Below are positions 42,093 through 48,556 of a stretch of 64,000 nucleotides of DNA, in pieces. Within the stretch, counting starts at the first letter, position 1; each line of letters opens with the position of its first letter. Origin of the DNA: Cryptosporangium aurantiacum (GTDB lineage: Bacteria; Actinomycetota; Actinomycetes; Mycobacteriales; Cryptosporangiaceae); NCBI RefSeq assembly GCF_900143005.1, contig NZ_FRCS01000001.1, forward strand, positions 868,001-932,000. Direction: 5' to 3'. The notes beneath the pieces were generated by a model. It made no database searches and was not told the origin of the DNA. It saw nothing but the letters and a program-made list of their open reading frames with translations. Position numbers and translations under genes: made by a program.

Positions 42093-43760
42093 ATGGGCAA
42101 GCCGGTTTTGCTCACCGTCGACGACGACCCGTCCGTGTCGCGTGCCGTAGCGCGTGACCTGCGGCGTCGGTACGGCGAGGACTACCGGGTCATGCGCGCG
42201 GACTCCGGTCCGCAGGCCCTGGACGCGCTCAAGGAGATCAAGCTGCGCGGCGACCGGGTGGCGGCGATCCTCGCCGACTACCGGATGCCGCAGATGAACG
42301 GCATCGAGTTCCTCGAGGCCGCGATGGACCTGTTCCCGCGGGCCCGCCGCGCGCTGCTCACCGCGTACGCCGACACCGATGCCGCGATCCAGGCGATCAA
42401 CGTGGTCGACGTCGACCACTACCTGCTCAAGCCCTGGGACCCGCCCGAGGAGAAGCTCTACCCGGTGGTCGACGCGCTGATCGCGACCTGGCAGGCCGCG
42501 GGCGACTCGCCGGTCGACGAGATCAAGGTCGTCGGGCACCAGTTCTCGCCCGCGTCGTTCGAGCTGCGGGACTTCCTGGCCCGCAACCAGGTGCCCTACC
42601 GCTGGTACTTCGCCGACTCGTCCGAGGGACGGCGGCTGCTGGAGTCGGCTGACGCCGATCCCGAGGAGCCGGACGTGATCCCGCTGGTGGTGACGCCCGA
42701 GGGTGAAGTACTGCGCAGTCCGACGCCGTCCGAGCTGGCGAGCCGCGTCGGCCTGGCCACCAACCCGGCGGAGAAGTTCTACGACGTCATCATCGTGGGC
42801 GGCGGACCGGCCGGGCTCGGCGCCGCGGTCTACGCGGCCTCCGAGGGGTTAAGGACCGTTCTCGTCGAGCAGCAAGCCACCGGCGGCCAAGCCGGGCAGA
42901 GCTCTCGCATCGAGAACTACCTCGGCTTCCCGGACGGCGTCAGCGGCGCCCAGCTCACCGAGCGCGCCCGGCGCCAGGCGATCAAGTTCGGCGCGGAGAT
43001 CCTCACCACCCGCCGGGCCTGCGAGCTGATCGTCAAGGGCTCGGCCCGCGGCGTGAAATTCGAGGACGGCACCGAGATCGCGGCACACGCCGTCGTGCTC
43101 GCAACCGGCGTGTCCTACCGGCGGTTGGCGGCCGACGGCATCGACGACCTGACCGGGCGCGGCGTCTACTACGGTTCCGCGGCGGTGGAGGCCCCGGCGT
43201 GCGCCGGTCAGGAGGTCGTCATCGTCGGCGGCGCCAACTCCGCCGGTCAGGCCGCGGTGTTCTTCTCCAAGCACGCGTCGCGGGTGCGGCTGGTCGTCCG
43301 CGGTCCGTCGCTCGAGGCGTCGATGTCGGCGTACCTGATCAAGCAGCTGGACGAGATCGACAACGTCATCGTCCAGACCCGGACGACCGTGTGCGCGTGC
43401 CTCGGCGAGGGGCGGCTGCAACGGATCGACCTGAGGAACGGCGACACCGGCGAGATCGAAGCGGTCGACGCCGGGTTCTGCTTCGTGTTCATCGGAGCCG
43501 CCCCGCTCACCGACTGGATGGACGGTGTGGTGGCCCGCGACGAGGCCGGATTTGTCCTGGCGGGCACCGACCTGCTCGGCGACGACGGCGCACGGCCCGC
43601 CGGCTGGACCGTGGACCGGGATCCGTTCCCGCTGGAGACCAGCATCCCGGGTGTGTTCGTGGCCGGTGACGTCCGCTCGCAGTCGGTGAAACGGGTGGCC
43701 TCGGCGGTCGGCGAAGGAGCGATGGCGGTGACGCTCGTCCACCGCTACCTCAGCGCGTGA
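42093..43760 (+). CDS. Response-regulator receiver fused to thioredoxin-reductase-like flavoprotein
   Basis: A 555-residue three-domain protein. Residues 1-130 are an intact CheY-type receiver: acidic pocket VDDDPS, phosphoacceptor Asp62 in LADYRMPQMNG, Thr90 in ALLTAYAD, Lys113 in YLLKPWD. Residues 143-222 form a glutaredoxin-like domain without cysteines (VGHQFSPASFELRDFLARNQ). Residues 228-555 are a TrxR-like FAD/NAD(P)H domain: IIVGGGPAGLGAAVY for FAD, VIVGGANSAGQAA for NAD(P)H and VFVAGDVR near the flavin. The CxxC redox pair of true TrxR is missing (GVYYGSAAVEAPA there). Phosphorylation probably controls an oxidoreductase whose electron acceptor is unknown. Residue 253 uses a TTA codon. 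The sensor kinase follows within 40 bp. Confidence 0.88.
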   Translation: MGKPVLLTVDDDPSVSRAVARDLRRRYGEDYRVMRADSGPQALDALKEIKLRGDRVAAILADYRMPQMNGIEFLEAAMDLFPRARRALLTAYADTDAAIQAINVVDVDHYLLKPWDPPEEKLYPVVDALIATWQAAGDSPVDEIKVVGHQFSPASFELRDFLARNQVPYRWYFADSSEGRRLLESADADPEEPDVIPLVVTPEGEVLRSPTPSELASRVGLATNPAEKFYDVIIVGGGPAGLGAAVYAASEGLRTVLVEQQATGGQAGQSSRIENYLGFPDGVSGAQLTERARRQAIKFGAEILTTRRACELIVKGSARGVKFEDGTEIAAHAVVLATGVSYRRLAADGIDDLTGRGVYYGSAAVEAPACAGQEVVIVGGANSAGQAAVFFSKHASRVRLVVRGPSLEASMSAYLIKQLDEIDNVIVQTRTTVCACLGEGRLQRIDLRNGDTGEIEAVDAGFCFVFIGAAPLTDWMDGVVARDEAGFVLAGTDLLGDDGARPAGWTVDRDPFPLETSIPGVFVAGDVRSQSVKRVASAVGEGAMAVTLVHRYLSA

Positions 43761-43800
43761 GAGCGCACACTGGAAGTACCGCGCGAGGAAGGACGCTGTG

Positions 43801-45255
43801 ATGACCGACCGGGTGAGCCCCGACGAGCTGAAACAACTGTTCCTGTTCGAGGCGCTCAGCCCCGAGCAGCTCACCTGGCTGGCCGAGCACGGGGCGAGGG
43901 AGGAGCGCGAAGCGAACTCCGTCGTCTACGGCGAGGGCGACCCGGCGACGTGCTTCTTCGTGCTGCTCTCCGGCACGATCAAGCTCAGCCGGACGGTCGG
44001 CGGCGCGCGGGTGGAGATCTCCCGCACCGACAAGCCGGGTGCCTACGCCGGGTCCTATATGGCCTACCTCGGTGACCGGGTCCCGCAGCGGTACCTGCAG
44101 ACGATGACCGCGCTCACCCCGTCCACGTTCTACGTGCTGCCCGCCGAGGACTTCGCGACGGTCGTCAGCACCTGGTTCCCGATGACCGTCCACCTGCTGG
44201 AGGGCCTCTACTTCGGCGGCCAGGCCAACCAGGCCACGGTCGGCTCGCGGGAGCGGCTGCAGGCGCTCGGGTCGCTCACCGCCGGGCTGACCCACGAGCT
44301 GAACAACCCGGCCGCCGCCACCGCGCGGGCGGCGTCGCTGCTGCGCGAGCGGGTCGCGAAGTCGCGGCACAAGCTCGCCGCACTGGCGCGCGGCGACATT
44401 CCCCGCGAGCGGCTGGCGGTCCTGGTCGACCTGCAGGAGGACGCGGTCGAGCGGTGCGCGAAGGCCAAGGAACTGTCCCCGGTGGAGGCGAACGACCGCG
44501 AGGACGAGCTGGGTGACTGGCTCGAGGAGCGGGACGTCCCGATGGCCTGGGACCTCGCGCCGACGCTCGTCGCGGCCGGGATCGACATCGACTGGGTGGA
44601 GGACGCCGAGGAGCGGCTCGGCGGCAAGCACCTGGACAGCGCGCTGCACTGGATCGGCTACACGCTCGAGACCGAGCAGCTGATGATGGAGATCTCGCAG
44701 GCGTCGGGCCGAATCTCCGAGCTGGTCACGGCCGCGAAGCAGTACTCCCAGCTCGACCGGGCACCGCACCAGTGGATCGACGTCCACGAAGGCATCGACA
44801 GCACGCTGGTCATGCTCTCCGGGAAGATCAACAAGAAGGAGATCTCGGTCGTCAAGGAGTACGACCGGACGCTCCCGCAGATCCCGGCGTACCCCGGTGA
44901 GCTCAACCAGGTCTGGACGAACCTGATCGTCAACGCGATCTCGGCGATGGGCGGCAAGGGCACGCTGACGATCCGCACGAGCCTGCGGCGGCCGGAGGAC
45001 CCGGACAGCCCGGTGCAGGTCGAGGTCTGCGACACCGGGCCAGGCGTGCCGGAGGAGATCCAGGAGCGGATCTTCGAGCCGTTCTTCACGACCAAGCCGG
45101 TCGGCGAGGGTACGGGCCTGGGGCTGGACATCTCGTGGCGGATCGTGGTGAACCGGCACGGTGGCGACCTGAGCGTCCAGAGCGTGCCGGGGGACACCCG
45201 GTTCATCGTCTGCCTGCCGCGGAACGAGCCCCAGCATCCGGGGCCTGCACGGTAG
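43801..45255 (+). CDS. Cyclic-nucleotide-binding-domain histidine kinase
   Basis: A 484-residue soluble kinase. Residues 8-130 are a CRP-type cNMP-binding domain (LFLFEALSPEQLTWLAEHG, YGEGDPATCFFVLLSGTIKL), the sensor. HisKA follows with LGSLTAGLTHELNNPAAA, phosphoacceptor His165. The HATPase has NQVWTNLIVNAISAMGG, CDTGPGVP and GTGLGLD. The arrangement matches kinases paired with receiver-TrxR flavoproteins; here the partner lies directly upstream. Ligand may be a cyclic nucleotide or a redox/oxygen signal; the classic phosphate-cassette arginine-serine pair is not evident. ATG 43801 has AGGAAGG eight bases upstream; GTG 43798 is possible. Confidence 0.88.
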   Translation: MTDRVSPDELKQLFLFEALSPEQLTWLAEHGAREEREANSVVYGEGDPATCFFVLLSGTIKLSRTVGGARVEISRTDKPGAYAGSYMAYLGDRVPQRYLQTMTALTPSTFYVLPAEDFATVVSTWFPMTVHLLEGLYFGGQANQATVGSRERLQALGSLTAGLTHELNNPAAATARAASLLRERVAKSRHKLAALARGDIPRERLAVLVDLQEDAVERCAKAKELSPVEANDREDELGDWLEERDVPMAWDLAPTLVAAGIDIDWVEDAEERLGGKHLDSALHWIGYTLETEQLMMEISQASGRISELVTAAKQYSQLDRAPHQWIDVHEGIDSTLVMLSGKINKKEISVVKEYDRTLPQIPAYPGELNQVWTNLIVNAISAMGGKGTLTIRTSLRRPEDPDSPVQVEVCDTGPGVPEEIQERIFEPFFTTKPVGEGTGLGLDISWRIVVNRHGGDLSVQSVPGDTRFIVCLPRNEPQHPGPAR

Positions 45256-45727: not shown

Positions 45728-48556
45728 TCAGCGCGCGGCGAGAGCGCGCAGCTCGCCCCGACCGTCCACACCGAGCTTGCGGTAGATCGCGGTGAGGTGG
45801 CCTTCGACGGTCTTGACGCTCAGCGAGAGCTCGACGGCGATCTGCTTGTTCGTGCGGCGGGCGCCGATCAGCCGGGCGATGCTCAGCTCGGTCGCGGTGA
45901 GCCCGGCGAAGACCGCCTCCGGCGTCTCGATCGAGAGCCCGAGCGTGCGGGCGGCGTCCGCGGCCTGGGTGACGTAAGCCGTCGCGCCGAGCGCCCTGGA
46001 CTGCAGTAGCGCGGTGCGCAGCGCGGCGACCGCAGGGGCCCGCCGGTCCAGCGCGGCCAGGCAGCGGCCGGTCAGCAGGTTGATCCGGACGACCTCCAGC
46101 GGCAGCCCGATCTCGGTGGCCAGCGCGAGCGCCTCGGTGCACGCGGTCAGGGCCTCGCGGTGCGCGCCGCGGGCCAGCGCGATCCGGGCGCGGACCCGGG
46201 CGACGCCGAGCCGGGCGGATCGTCGCTCCGGACGGGCCAGTTTGGACAGGTACGTCGCGAGGGCCGCGTCCGCGTCGTCGGGGCGGCCGAGCTGAGCCAG
46301 GGCGTCCGCGCGCAGCGGCCCGAACAGGTGGGTGCCCGGCTCCTGCGAGTCGTAGTGCTTCTCGATGTCCACCGCGGCCGCGAGCAGCGCGGTGGGGTCG
46401 TCCTTGGCCTGGGCGATCGCGGCGAGCCCGCCGGCGGCGTAGGCCAGGCCGGTGCTCGCGCCGATCAGCCCGGCCCAGTGCGCGGCGGCGCGGACGTGGG
46501 CGTCGGCGGCGGACCACTCGGCGCGGGCCGCGCGGGGATAGCAGGCCAGCGCGTGCAGGATCGCGTACTCCCAGACCCGGAGGCTCTCCTCGGCGTCGCC
46601 GAGCGCGAGTTCGGCGTGCAGCACCGCGTCGGTGAGCTCGCCGCGGCGGTACTCGACCTCGGCGAGGTAACCCAGCGCCTGGCCGATGCGCAGCGCCTCA
46701 CCGGCGGTGGCGCGCGCGACCGACTGACGCAGGTCGCGGTCGGCGTCGGCCAGGCGATCGGTCCAGAGCGCGATCATGCCGCGGGCGCAGAGCGCGTCGA
46801 GCGCACCGGCGGCTCCGGGGGCGTCGGCGTCGGCGAGCGCGGCGATCGCCTCCTCGGCCCGGCCGGACAGGGCCAGCCCGATCGCGCGGGCGAAGTGCGC
46901 GTAGGCGGCGACCCAGGGTTCGGTCGCCGGTGCCTCGACCGCCTCGACGCCGTACCGGATCATGTCCCGGTAGTCGAGCGTGAGGATCGCGATGATCGCG
47001 AGCTGCGCCGCGATACGAGCTTGGAGATCGCCGGCGGTCGGCTGACCCGCGAGAGCGCCACCGTCGGGCCGAGCCTGGAGATCGCCGGCGGTCGGCTGAC
47101 CCGCGAGAGCGCCGGCCGTGGGATCGGGCTCGCGGACCGTGGCCAGTGCGCGGTCGAGGAGGGTTTTCGCCTCGGGGATCCGGCCGGAGAGCAGCAGTTG
47201 GTACCCGGCGACGTAGTCGCGCCACGGCCCGTCGGGCGCGGTGCCGACGTCGCTCTCGTAGTCCTGCGCGCCGGCCGCGTCGCCGGCGACCAGCAGCGCC
47301 TCGACGGTGGTGAGTACGCGGGCGGCTCGCACCGGCCCGCGCGGGGTGAGTTCGACGGCGTGCCGGTACAGCGCCGCGGCCGCGGTCAGCTCCCCGCGTC
47401 GCCAGCGTTCCCGGGCGGCGTGCTCGGCGTCGTCGGCCAGCTCCGCGTCCAGGCCACCGGCCGCGGCGGTGAGCCGGTGATCGAGCACGTTCGGCCCGCC
47501 CAGCCGCGCCGCCCGCCGGTGCAGCTCCTGCCGGTAGGACAGCGCCCGGTCGTGGTAGAGCGACGAGCGGGTCAACCGGTCGGCGAACACGAACTCGCGC
47601 CCGCCGCTGCCCGGCACCTCGACGATCAGCCCGACGGCCAGCGCCTCGGTGGTCGCGGCGGTCAGCGGGCCCCCGGCGAGCTCGGCGATCGCGGCGGCGT
47701 CGGCCAGCCGGAACCGTTCACCCAGGACGGCCGCGGCCGACACCAGCTCTCTGGCCGGCGCGTGGCACGTCGCCAGCTGGGAGGCGATCGTCGCCGAGAT
47801 CGAGTGCGGTGCGGGCAACGGGCTACTGTCCGCGGCCAGCGTCCGCATCGAGAGCTGAGGCAGCAGGTGACGGACGTGCAACGGGTTTCCGTCGGTCAGC
47901 TGCCAGAGCCTGGCCGCACCGGCTGGCGAGAGCCCGGCCCGGCCCTCCAGGGCCGCGAGCTGCATCAGCTCGTCGGGTGCGAGCCCACCGAGCTCCAGTT
48001 CGACGCCCCGGTCGGACTCCACCATCCGGCGCCAGCCGTCCGGCAGACCCGGGTTCGGGCGGCCGTCCGGGATCCGCCGCACCGCGCCGGGCGGGTGGTG
48101 GATCACCACGACGAGGACCGGCGCCGACGGCATCCGCCTCGCGGCGTACCGGATCGCCTCGATCGAGGCGCGGTCGGCCCAGTGCGCGTCGTCCACGACC
48201 ACCACGGTCGGGCCGGCGCGCTGCAGGTCGGTGGCGAGCGCGTCGCCGACGAACACCGGGTTCGCCCCCGGATCGGGCGTCCGGATCGACTCGGCGGTCG
48301 CCGAGGACGGCAACCGCGCGACGGCCTGCCGGAGAATCTCCCACTGCCGGTCGACCTCGTTCTCGTCGGCCGCCAGCCAGAGCGTCGACGCGCCCGGCAG
48401 CCCGGCGAGGAAGTGTTCGACCAGGCGCGTCTTCCCGGTGCCTGGTGCGCCGGTGACGCTGACCACCCGCGGGTCACCGGCCTGCGTCGACCGCCATGCT
48501 TCGCCCAGGACCACCGTCTCCGGGCCGCGTCCGACGAAGGAGCGACTCGTGTCCAT
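45728..48556 (-). CDS. Large ATP-binding LuxR-family regulator (LAL/MalT-like)
   Basis: A 942-residue transcription factor. An AAA/NB-ARC-type ATPase occupies the first 300 residues with Walker A VTGAPGTGKTRLVEHF and Walker B-like TVVVVDDAHWADR. A long helical TPR-like region runs from about 370 to 860. The C-terminal LuxR helix-turn-helix is LTATELSIARLIGARRTNKQIAVELSLSVKTVEGHL. Such LAL proteins activate secondary metabolism or sugar genes on binding a small ligand. Residues near 500 contain an 18-residue tandem duplication (GALAGQPTAGDLQAR twice). Its target is unknown; it may act on itself or on neighbouring membrane genes. Confidence 0.92.
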   Translation of the reverse strand: MDTSRSFVGRGPETVVLGEAWRSTQAGDPRVVSVTGAPGTGKTRLVEHFLAGLPGASTLWLAADENEVDRQWEILRQAVARLPSSATAESIRTPDPGANPVFVGDALATDLQRAGPTVVVVDDAHWADRASIEAIRYAARRMPSAPVLVVVIHHPPGAVRRIPDGRPNPGLPDGWRRMVESDRGVELELGGLAPDELMQLAALEGRAGLSPAGAARLWQLTDGNPLHVRHLLPQLSMRTLAADSSPLPAPHSISATIASQLATCHAPARELVSAAAVLGERFRLADAAAIAELAGGPLTAATTEALAVGLIVEVPGSGGREFVFADRLTRSSLYHDRALSYRQELHRRAARLGGPNVLDHRLTAAAGGLDAELADDAEHAARERWRRGELTAAAALYRHAVELTPRGPVRAARVLTTVEALLVAGDAAGAQDYESDVGTAPDGPWRDYVAGYQLLLSGRIPEAKTLLDRALATVREPDPTAGALAGQPTAGDLQARPDGGALAGQPTAGDLQARIAAQLAIIAILTLDYRDMIRYGVEAVEAPATEPWVAAYAHFARAIGLALSGRAEEAIAALADADAPGAAGALDALCARGMIALWTDRLADADRDLRQSVARATAGEALRIGQALGYLAEVEYRRGELTDAVLHAELALGDAEESLRVWEYAILHALACYPRAARAEWSAADAHVRAAAHWAGLIGASTGLAYAAGGLAAIAQAKDDPTALLAAAVDIEKHYDSQEPGTHLFGPLRADALAQLGRPDDADAALATYLSKLARPERRSARLGVARVRARIALARGAHREALTACTEALALATEIGLPLEVVRINLLTGRCLAALDRRAPAVAALRTALLQSRALGATAYVTQAADAARTLGLSIETPEAVFAGLTATELSIARLIGARRTNKQIAVELSLSVKTVEGHLTAIYRKLGVDGRGELRALAAR
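47022..47129. repeat. 54-bp in-frame tandem duplication inside the LuxR-type gene
   Basis: The segment around GGAGATCGCCGGCGGTCGGC occurs twice with a 54-base period (TGGAG at 47022 and 47076). It adds 18 residues and keeps the frame. The two copies are nearly identical, so the event is recent. Confidence 0.85.

Follow-up and report, generated by a model that had tools for sequence, protein, structure and literature searches.

Two adjacent genes of Cryptosporangium aurantiacum, located on a 64,000-nucleotide stretch of its genome (contig NZ_FRCS01000001.1, positions 868,001 to 932,000 of the forward strand; termed the window), encode a response regulator, composed of a receiver (REC), a glutaredoxin (Grx)-like, and a thioredoxin reductase (TrxR)-like domain, and a soluble histidine kinase. 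Such signaling pairs are widespread and go by the name "thioredoxin reductase," yet, judging from their conserved and lost residues, they probably do something other than TrxR activity. With somewhat more confidence than doubt, we favor a dedicated two-component pair governing a non-thioredoxin flavoprotein. New in this analysis are the co-occurrence counts of the kinase, its insert module, the decay of the receiver where the kinase is missing, the loss of CxxC across the signaling groups, a neighboring UBP-type zinc-finger (zf-UBP) gene, and a sensor lacking the canonical cAMP motif.

Results

The regulator gene (positions 42093–43760 of the window, 555 amino acids; assigned to the catalogued "TrxB" class of response regulators) and the kinase gene (43798–45255, 485 amino acids; the ATG at 43801 is a possible alternative start) lie 37 bp apart on the plus strand. 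Both assignments derive from open reading frames, Pfam matches, and AlphaFold2 models (mean pLDDT: regulator 87, kinase 86), that of the kinase also from conserved catalytic residues. Conservation of both proteins beyond the boundaries of genus and phylum shows that the reading frames are not due to chance; the two genes which the sequence-only reading of this DNA had described are real. The receiver domain comprises residues 7–118 (42111–42446, plus strand like all features of the pair; Pfam PF00072, Response_reg, 53.9 bits, above the cut-off). Its residues D10, D11, D62, T90, and K113 are all intact, the last three exactly where that reading had placed them.

Downstream of the regulator, all 80 of the best-matching named loci have a kinase match, in 79 of them at a distance of 6–173 bp; in L063, a gene for an IS605 TnpB-like protein is placed between regulator and kinase (L063:11668-12930). 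In L047, the kinase lies 2.3 kb away, behind inserted genes for a DUF485 protein and a solute symporter on the opposite strand (L047:5633-7764). As the named loci are the closest matches and, hence, not an unbiased sample, 197 genomes of the phylum were searched with each protein; 49 contained a match to the regulator family (E ≤ 1e-50) and 24 a match to the kinase (E ≤ 1e-40). Of the 25 homologues at least 49% identical to the regulator (24 full-length, the other truncated where its contig stops), 24 had the kinase adjacent, which is far from the rarity that would speak against the pairing put forward in the sequence-only reading. Outside this group, genome G191 carries a fragmented regulator with stops (55% identical over residues 1–246), again adjoined by a kinase match. 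Members of the class come from Streptomyces, Mycobacterium, Deinococcus, and Nostoc. In Deinococcus aetherius and Nostoc sp. C052, the same pair is plasmid-borne and has kept all switch residues. Near the pair, both plasmids carry a gene for LtrA (low temperature requirement A; L199:13334-14563 and L200:11148-12323, respectively), and a second kinase with a cyclic nucleotide (cNMP)-type sensor is encoded upstream on that of Deinococcus.

Integrity of the receiver went along with presence of the kinase. D62, T90, and K113 are present in each of the 112 full-length homologues whose locus includes a kinase; among full-length proteins of the phylum sample, they are intact in 23 of 23 with, versus 2 of 21 without, a kinase, the split being made by hand. 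Both exceptions (L156 and L162) sit at contig edges and were counted as kinase-less. Partial or odd rows (L175, L182, L189, L191, and L196) and the contig-cut L146 were left out of these counts; absence of the kinase refers to the flanks examined, to which a whole-genome search added no kinase at its threshold. In a tree of 93 rows, built without the receiver and with no more than 12 of the 80 named loci represented, the proteins with decayed receivers group together (SH-aLRT 99), as do the kinase-paired proteins (support 90, unstarred), whose clade also contains L156 and the odd, REC-less L191. The tree implies two changes for receiver integrity and four for kinase presence, one of them being L047. 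A repeated correlation of receiver decay with kinase loss was, therefore, rejected (roughly one event on the tree; sign test without power), and the Fisher value for the link overstates independence.

The two domains following the receiver have lost their redox-active cysteines. The Grx-fold domain (residues ∼141–222; 42513–42758; assigned by profile search, model, and motif) carries S152-P-A-S155 in place of CxxC. Its nearest solved protein is mycoredoxin-1 (2lqo; E 1.3e-10), found with an alignment profile that includes two CxxC-bearing relatives; the window sequence of this region alone gave no match against Pfam. In the model, residues 144–218 adopt a b-a-b-a-b-b-a fold. Neither an active CxxC nor the single nucleophilic cysteine of a glutaredoxin or mycoredoxin is present, the only cysteines of the regulator being residues 310, 370, 434, 436, and 463; the domain had been called cysteine-less before, and correctly so. 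The TrxR-like FAD/NAD(P)H domain (residues 229–555; 42777–43757; Pfam Pyr_redox_2 at 230–542, above the cut-off) likewise lacks CxxC, as had been noted: its former dithiol loop reads Y360-G-S-A-A-V-E366-A-P-A-C370 (43170–43202; motif reading and residue conservation), with Y360 to E366 occupying the CxxC position. Across the REC, pseudo-REC, and cNMP-fused groups (147 rows), both segments are uniformly free of CxxC. Both pairs are kept in stand-alone relatives (L192, L193, and L058, where the Grx segment reads CPDC or CSDC and the TrxR segment CATC); these stand-alone Grx-TrxR fusions, to which L194 also belongs, are apparently extant relatives of the active ancestor. In Streptomyces violaceoruber NRRL S-981 (L121), which we take to be close to S. 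coelicolor, the pair and the zinc finger are present and CxxC is absent.

The fold of a TrxR with its FAD and nucleotide motifs was, nevertheless, recovered. The FAD and nucleotide glycines are conserved and M411-S412-x-Y414 is present; G236, G238, G241, and D526 of the FAD motifs, together with G379, N382, A384, R403, M411, S412, and Y414, are invariant in 113 of 113 paired regulators. The HRRxxxR motif of TrxR, which recognizes the 2′-phosphate of NADPH, reads VRGPSLEA in the window protein (VRGxSL in the family); its HRR is present in L195, L197, and L198. Scores against the NCBIfam models for TrxR (TIGR01292; 216.7 bits, cut-off 343.45) and AhpF (TIGR03140; 156.5 bits, cut-off 502.9) remained below threshold. 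Cys370, near the old active site, is common but not universal: it occurs in 104 of 112 kinase-accompanied REC proteins, in 11 of 11 CxxC-less proteins without REC, and in 1 of 25 full-length proteins lacking a kinase. As a new catalytic residue it was rejected, being absent in the deep-branching L151, L152, L153, L157, L158, and L159 of the phylum sample and in L045, the close relative L041, and the kinase-bearing Deinococcus L199. As both CxxC pairs are missing in the signaling groups, "thioredoxin reductase" is, by its motifs, a misnomer for them; a regulator devoid of both should be unable to run a thioredoxin-type dithiol exchange, in line with the earlier view that thioredoxin is unlikely to be the direct acceptor.

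The soluble kinase directly downstream contains, as anticipated, a CRP-type sensor (cNMP_binding) followed by a catalytic domain (HATPase_c). The sensor (residues 38–123; 43909–44166; PF00027, 45.3 bits, cut-off 27.5) has no canonical phosphate-binding cassette: the cyclic-nucleotide pattern GE...R(S/T)A is absent in the window kinase and present in 4 of 113 kinases, all of them distant. This departure, like Cys370 and the altered HRRxxxR motif of the regulator, had escaped the sequence-only reading. A phmmer match (E 6.8e-6) links the sensor to the regulator DNR (2z69), which binds heme. H166 as well as N370, N379, D412, G414, and G416 are kept in all 113 full-length relatives aligned, and the HATPase_c domain (residues 368–476; 44899–45225) is above the Pfam cut-off. 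HisKA is not (14.3 versus 26.9 bits), although the H-box histidine, N-box, and G-box were all found, probably because a helical insert of ∼80 residues (∼198–278; 44389–44631) sits in the phospho-acceptor hairpin, between the modeled helices 127–197 and 279–321. The distance from H166 to R305 is 128–148 residues in the 113 kinases. A 176-residue query covering both phospho-acceptor helices together with the insert (residues 150–325) gave 30 matches in 24 of the 197 genomes (E ≤ 1e-6); 29 of them, tandem copies counted, belong to a REC-TrxR locus, and only G036:C1:1217276 does not. The insert alone, as query, matched no solved structure. In L045, the kinase has the same module and a different N-terminus, PAS-like by eye. 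Three tandem cNMP-type kinases follow a single REC-TrxR gene in two loci (L147 and L149; genomes G181 and G229), where they perhaps provide several inputs for one regulator.

Of the 80 named loci, 39 contain a zf-UBP gene, which in 38 cases is on the same strand and directly after the kinase (some of the other 41 stretches being shorter than the full locus); over the stretches covered, it is also present in 12 of 64 loci of the phylum sample. It also adjoins pseudo-REC (L173), cNMP-fused (L184 and L202), and plain (L206) versions. Its six cysteines are each kept in 61 of 62 copies. Of the 197 genomes, 34 of the 42 with a CxxC-less family member contain zf-UBP, versus 12 of the 155 others (Fisher 1.5e-20, with lists merged by hand and genome size and kinship uncontrolled); among 61 closer relatives, likewise merged by hand, 36 of the 39 that have a family match (one of the 39 being of the CxxC type) contain it, versus 8 of the 22 that do not. 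Exclusivity of the link to the REC-TrxR family was rejected, because zf-UBP is also fused to Na+/H+ exchangers, as observed in two actinobacterial genomes checked. The window genome contains a single zf-UBP gene, unlinked to the pair and divergent from a Na+/H+ exchanger gene (for the fusions and this gene, see L214:241-2409, L215:2752-4956, and L207:4839-6978). On a plasmid of Streptomyces angustmyceticus (L202:1-7299), the cis-fused cNMP/TrxR version resides in an island dnaK-grpE-dnaJ-cbpM-clpB-trxA-zfUBP-cNMP/TrxR, a protein-quality-control context.

A promoter scan at the window locus detected none, and a terminator scan gave two matches (0.9 expected), neither immediately 3′ of the kinase gene. 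Convergent with the latter is a gene for a large AAA/LuxR-type regulator (45728–48556, minus strand).

Discussion

The class to which the window pair belongs is already catalogued: SCO7297/SCO7298 is listed as a response regulator–histidine kinase pair of type TrxB (PMC9739842), a "Mycobacterium-like" combination of REC and thioredoxin reductase is named (PMC5847659), and TrxB is a response regulator class in a table row (PMC9953108). SCO7298, we infer without its sequence, is the orthologue of the window regulator. In expression studies, trxB3 (sco7298) is reported to be induced by polysulfide, which persists without AdpA (PMC9952706), and SCO7298 to be upregulated by acid shock (PMC2631018); both responses are reported alongside those of thioredoxins. 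Passages of PMC3164672 bear no relation to the pair. A literature search that mostly did not reach subscription journals found no biochemical or genetic study of it. Regarded as a poorly described system by the sequence-only reading, the pair is so with respect to function, but not as a class, nor with respect to SCO7298 transcription; overall, that interpretation is partly supported.

Resemblance to known enzymes is confined to parts of the protein. The REC-TrxB class (P2CS type "TrxB", SCO7298/SCO7297) shares the fusion of a receiver with a TrxR-like part and the paired kinase; its sources name the output TrxB or thioredoxin reductase, whereas the window family is devoid of both CxxC pairs, and the dead Grx domain, the kinase insert, and the zf-UBP neighbor are additions of the present analysis. 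With low-Mr TrxB, the window protein shares the two-domain FAD/NAD(P)H fold; the best TrxR match in a structure search covering mainly residues 225–555 was 5mh4 (FR conformation; 27% identity, Z 35.0, root-mean-square deviation 1.8 across 301 residues), which shared its rank with other TrxRs. Unlike low-Mr TrxB, it has no CxxC, an altered HRRxxxR, and additional REC and Grx domains. AhpF also places a thioredoxin-fold part ahead of a TrxR-like core and was the top Foldseek match (4o5q; E 1.1e-31, but TM ∼0.4 and root-mean-square deviation 28). In AhpF, the N-terminal part comprises two thioredoxin folds and CxxC pairs are present, whereas the window protein has one cysteine-less Grx fold and a receiver. 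None of the best 60 of 160 solved chains matched by phmmer spans receiver and TrxR jointly. The same Grx and CxxC-less TrxR module recurs in cNMP-domain-containing thioredoxin-disulfide reductases (an NCBI product name), with a zf-UBP neighbor in L202 and L184; there, the sensor is fused in cis, whereas in the window system it would act via kinase and receiver.

The mechanism we propose begins with autophosphorylation of the kinase, equipped with a degenerate CRP-fold sensor, on H166, from where the phosphate would pass to D62 of the regulator, aided by the kinase-specific insert in the phospho-acceptor hairpin. The output would be an FAD- and probably NAD(P)H-binding module of TrxR fold, descended from an active Grx-TrxR fusion by loss of both cysteine pairs. 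Phosphorylation would most likely alter the domain arrangement. This would affect either the passing of hydride to an acceptor other than thioredoxin or the docking of a partner, for which the zf-UBP protein is the best candidate. The best-supported course leads from the kinase via D62 to an altered state of the flavoprotein, with an acceptor or partner other than thioredoxin; pairing and residue conservation argue for its first half, and the second half is an inference. Architecture, pairing, the residues of kinase and receiver, and the loss of CxxC can be read from the sequence, whereas phosphotransfer, docking by means of the insert, cofactor binding, gating, and the acceptor are predicted. 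The earlier proposal of a cognate pair with a flavoprotein-type rather than a DNA-binding output is supported.

Several observations weigh against this mechanism. The nearest matches form a biased sample, and the correlation of receiver and kinase amounts to about one evolutionary event (two changes; independent-pairs test without power). Among the top 100 residue couplings in 110 pairs, REC with the phospho-acceptor accounts for 13 (4.2 expected), but REC with the sensor is equally enriched (22; 7.0 expected), which points to shared ancestry. L156 (genome G228) has an intact receiver, and a search of its whole assembly gave no kinase match; the gene is followed by only 539 bp of contig and the assembly is 93% complete, so that the kinase may be missing from the assembly or L156 may be a real exception. 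No zf-UBP gene occurs in 41 of the 80 named loci, over the stretches covered, or near the window locus, and its fusion to Na+/H+ exchangers means that it may be a general accessory. Finally, catalysis by the regulator is purely hypothetical. The main and serious rival is a pure scaffold, possible if not probable: a pseudo-enzyme without turnover, whose shape would be set by FAD/NAD(P)H occupancy and receiver phosphorylation and whose output would be partner binding. Loss of both CxxC pairs, lack of any invariant cysteine, and the altered NADPH 2′-phosphate motif fit this notion, as do paralogues that lost the receiver residues yet kept the flavoprotein sequence; the invariance of G379, N382, A384, R403, M411, S412, Y414, and D526 seemingly exceeds what a scaffold needs.

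If, instead, the zf-UBP protein were part of the electron path, the kinase would control a three-component relay from NAD(P)H via FAD to zinc-thiolates. Consistent with such a relay are the zf-UBP genes in 39 of the 80 named loci, their placement close to other versions (pseudo-REC, cNMP-fused, and plain), the kept cysteines, and the strong co-occurrence by genome, but the gene is unlinked in the window genome, where it lies beside the exchanger gene, and its cysteines may all be zinc ligands; we consider this relay unlikely. The name TrxB3, given to SCO7298 in the S. coelicolor literature, implies a functional thioredoxin reductase, which the regulator is highly unlikely to be: its TrxR fold and the polysulfide and acid-shock induction reported with thioredoxins (PMC9952706, PMC2631018) would agree with such a role, the missing CxxC, the TIGR01292 score far below the cut-off, and the equally CxxC-less protein of L121 do not.

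Returning to the favored pair of kinase and non-thioredoxin flavoprotein, an extension of it, which we regard as doubtful, is that the phosphorylation-controlled, cysteine-pair-free flavoprotein would signal by its flavin/nucleotide state instead of dithiol exchange and act on zf-UBP modules, elsewhere fused or adjacent to Na+/H+ exchangers, so that, through the pair, a cytosolic cue would be coupled to ion or pH homeostasis. The action of KefF on KefC is a loose parallel.

What is at stake is a catalogued class of regulators which is labeled thioredoxin reductase and grouped with thioredoxin systems in expression studies, yet is devoid of the defining cysteines. Correction of the label, together with a dedicated type of kinase and a recurrent zinc-finger neighbor, leads to a concrete biochemical question, namely, which role the putatively receiver-controlled flavin domain may play.

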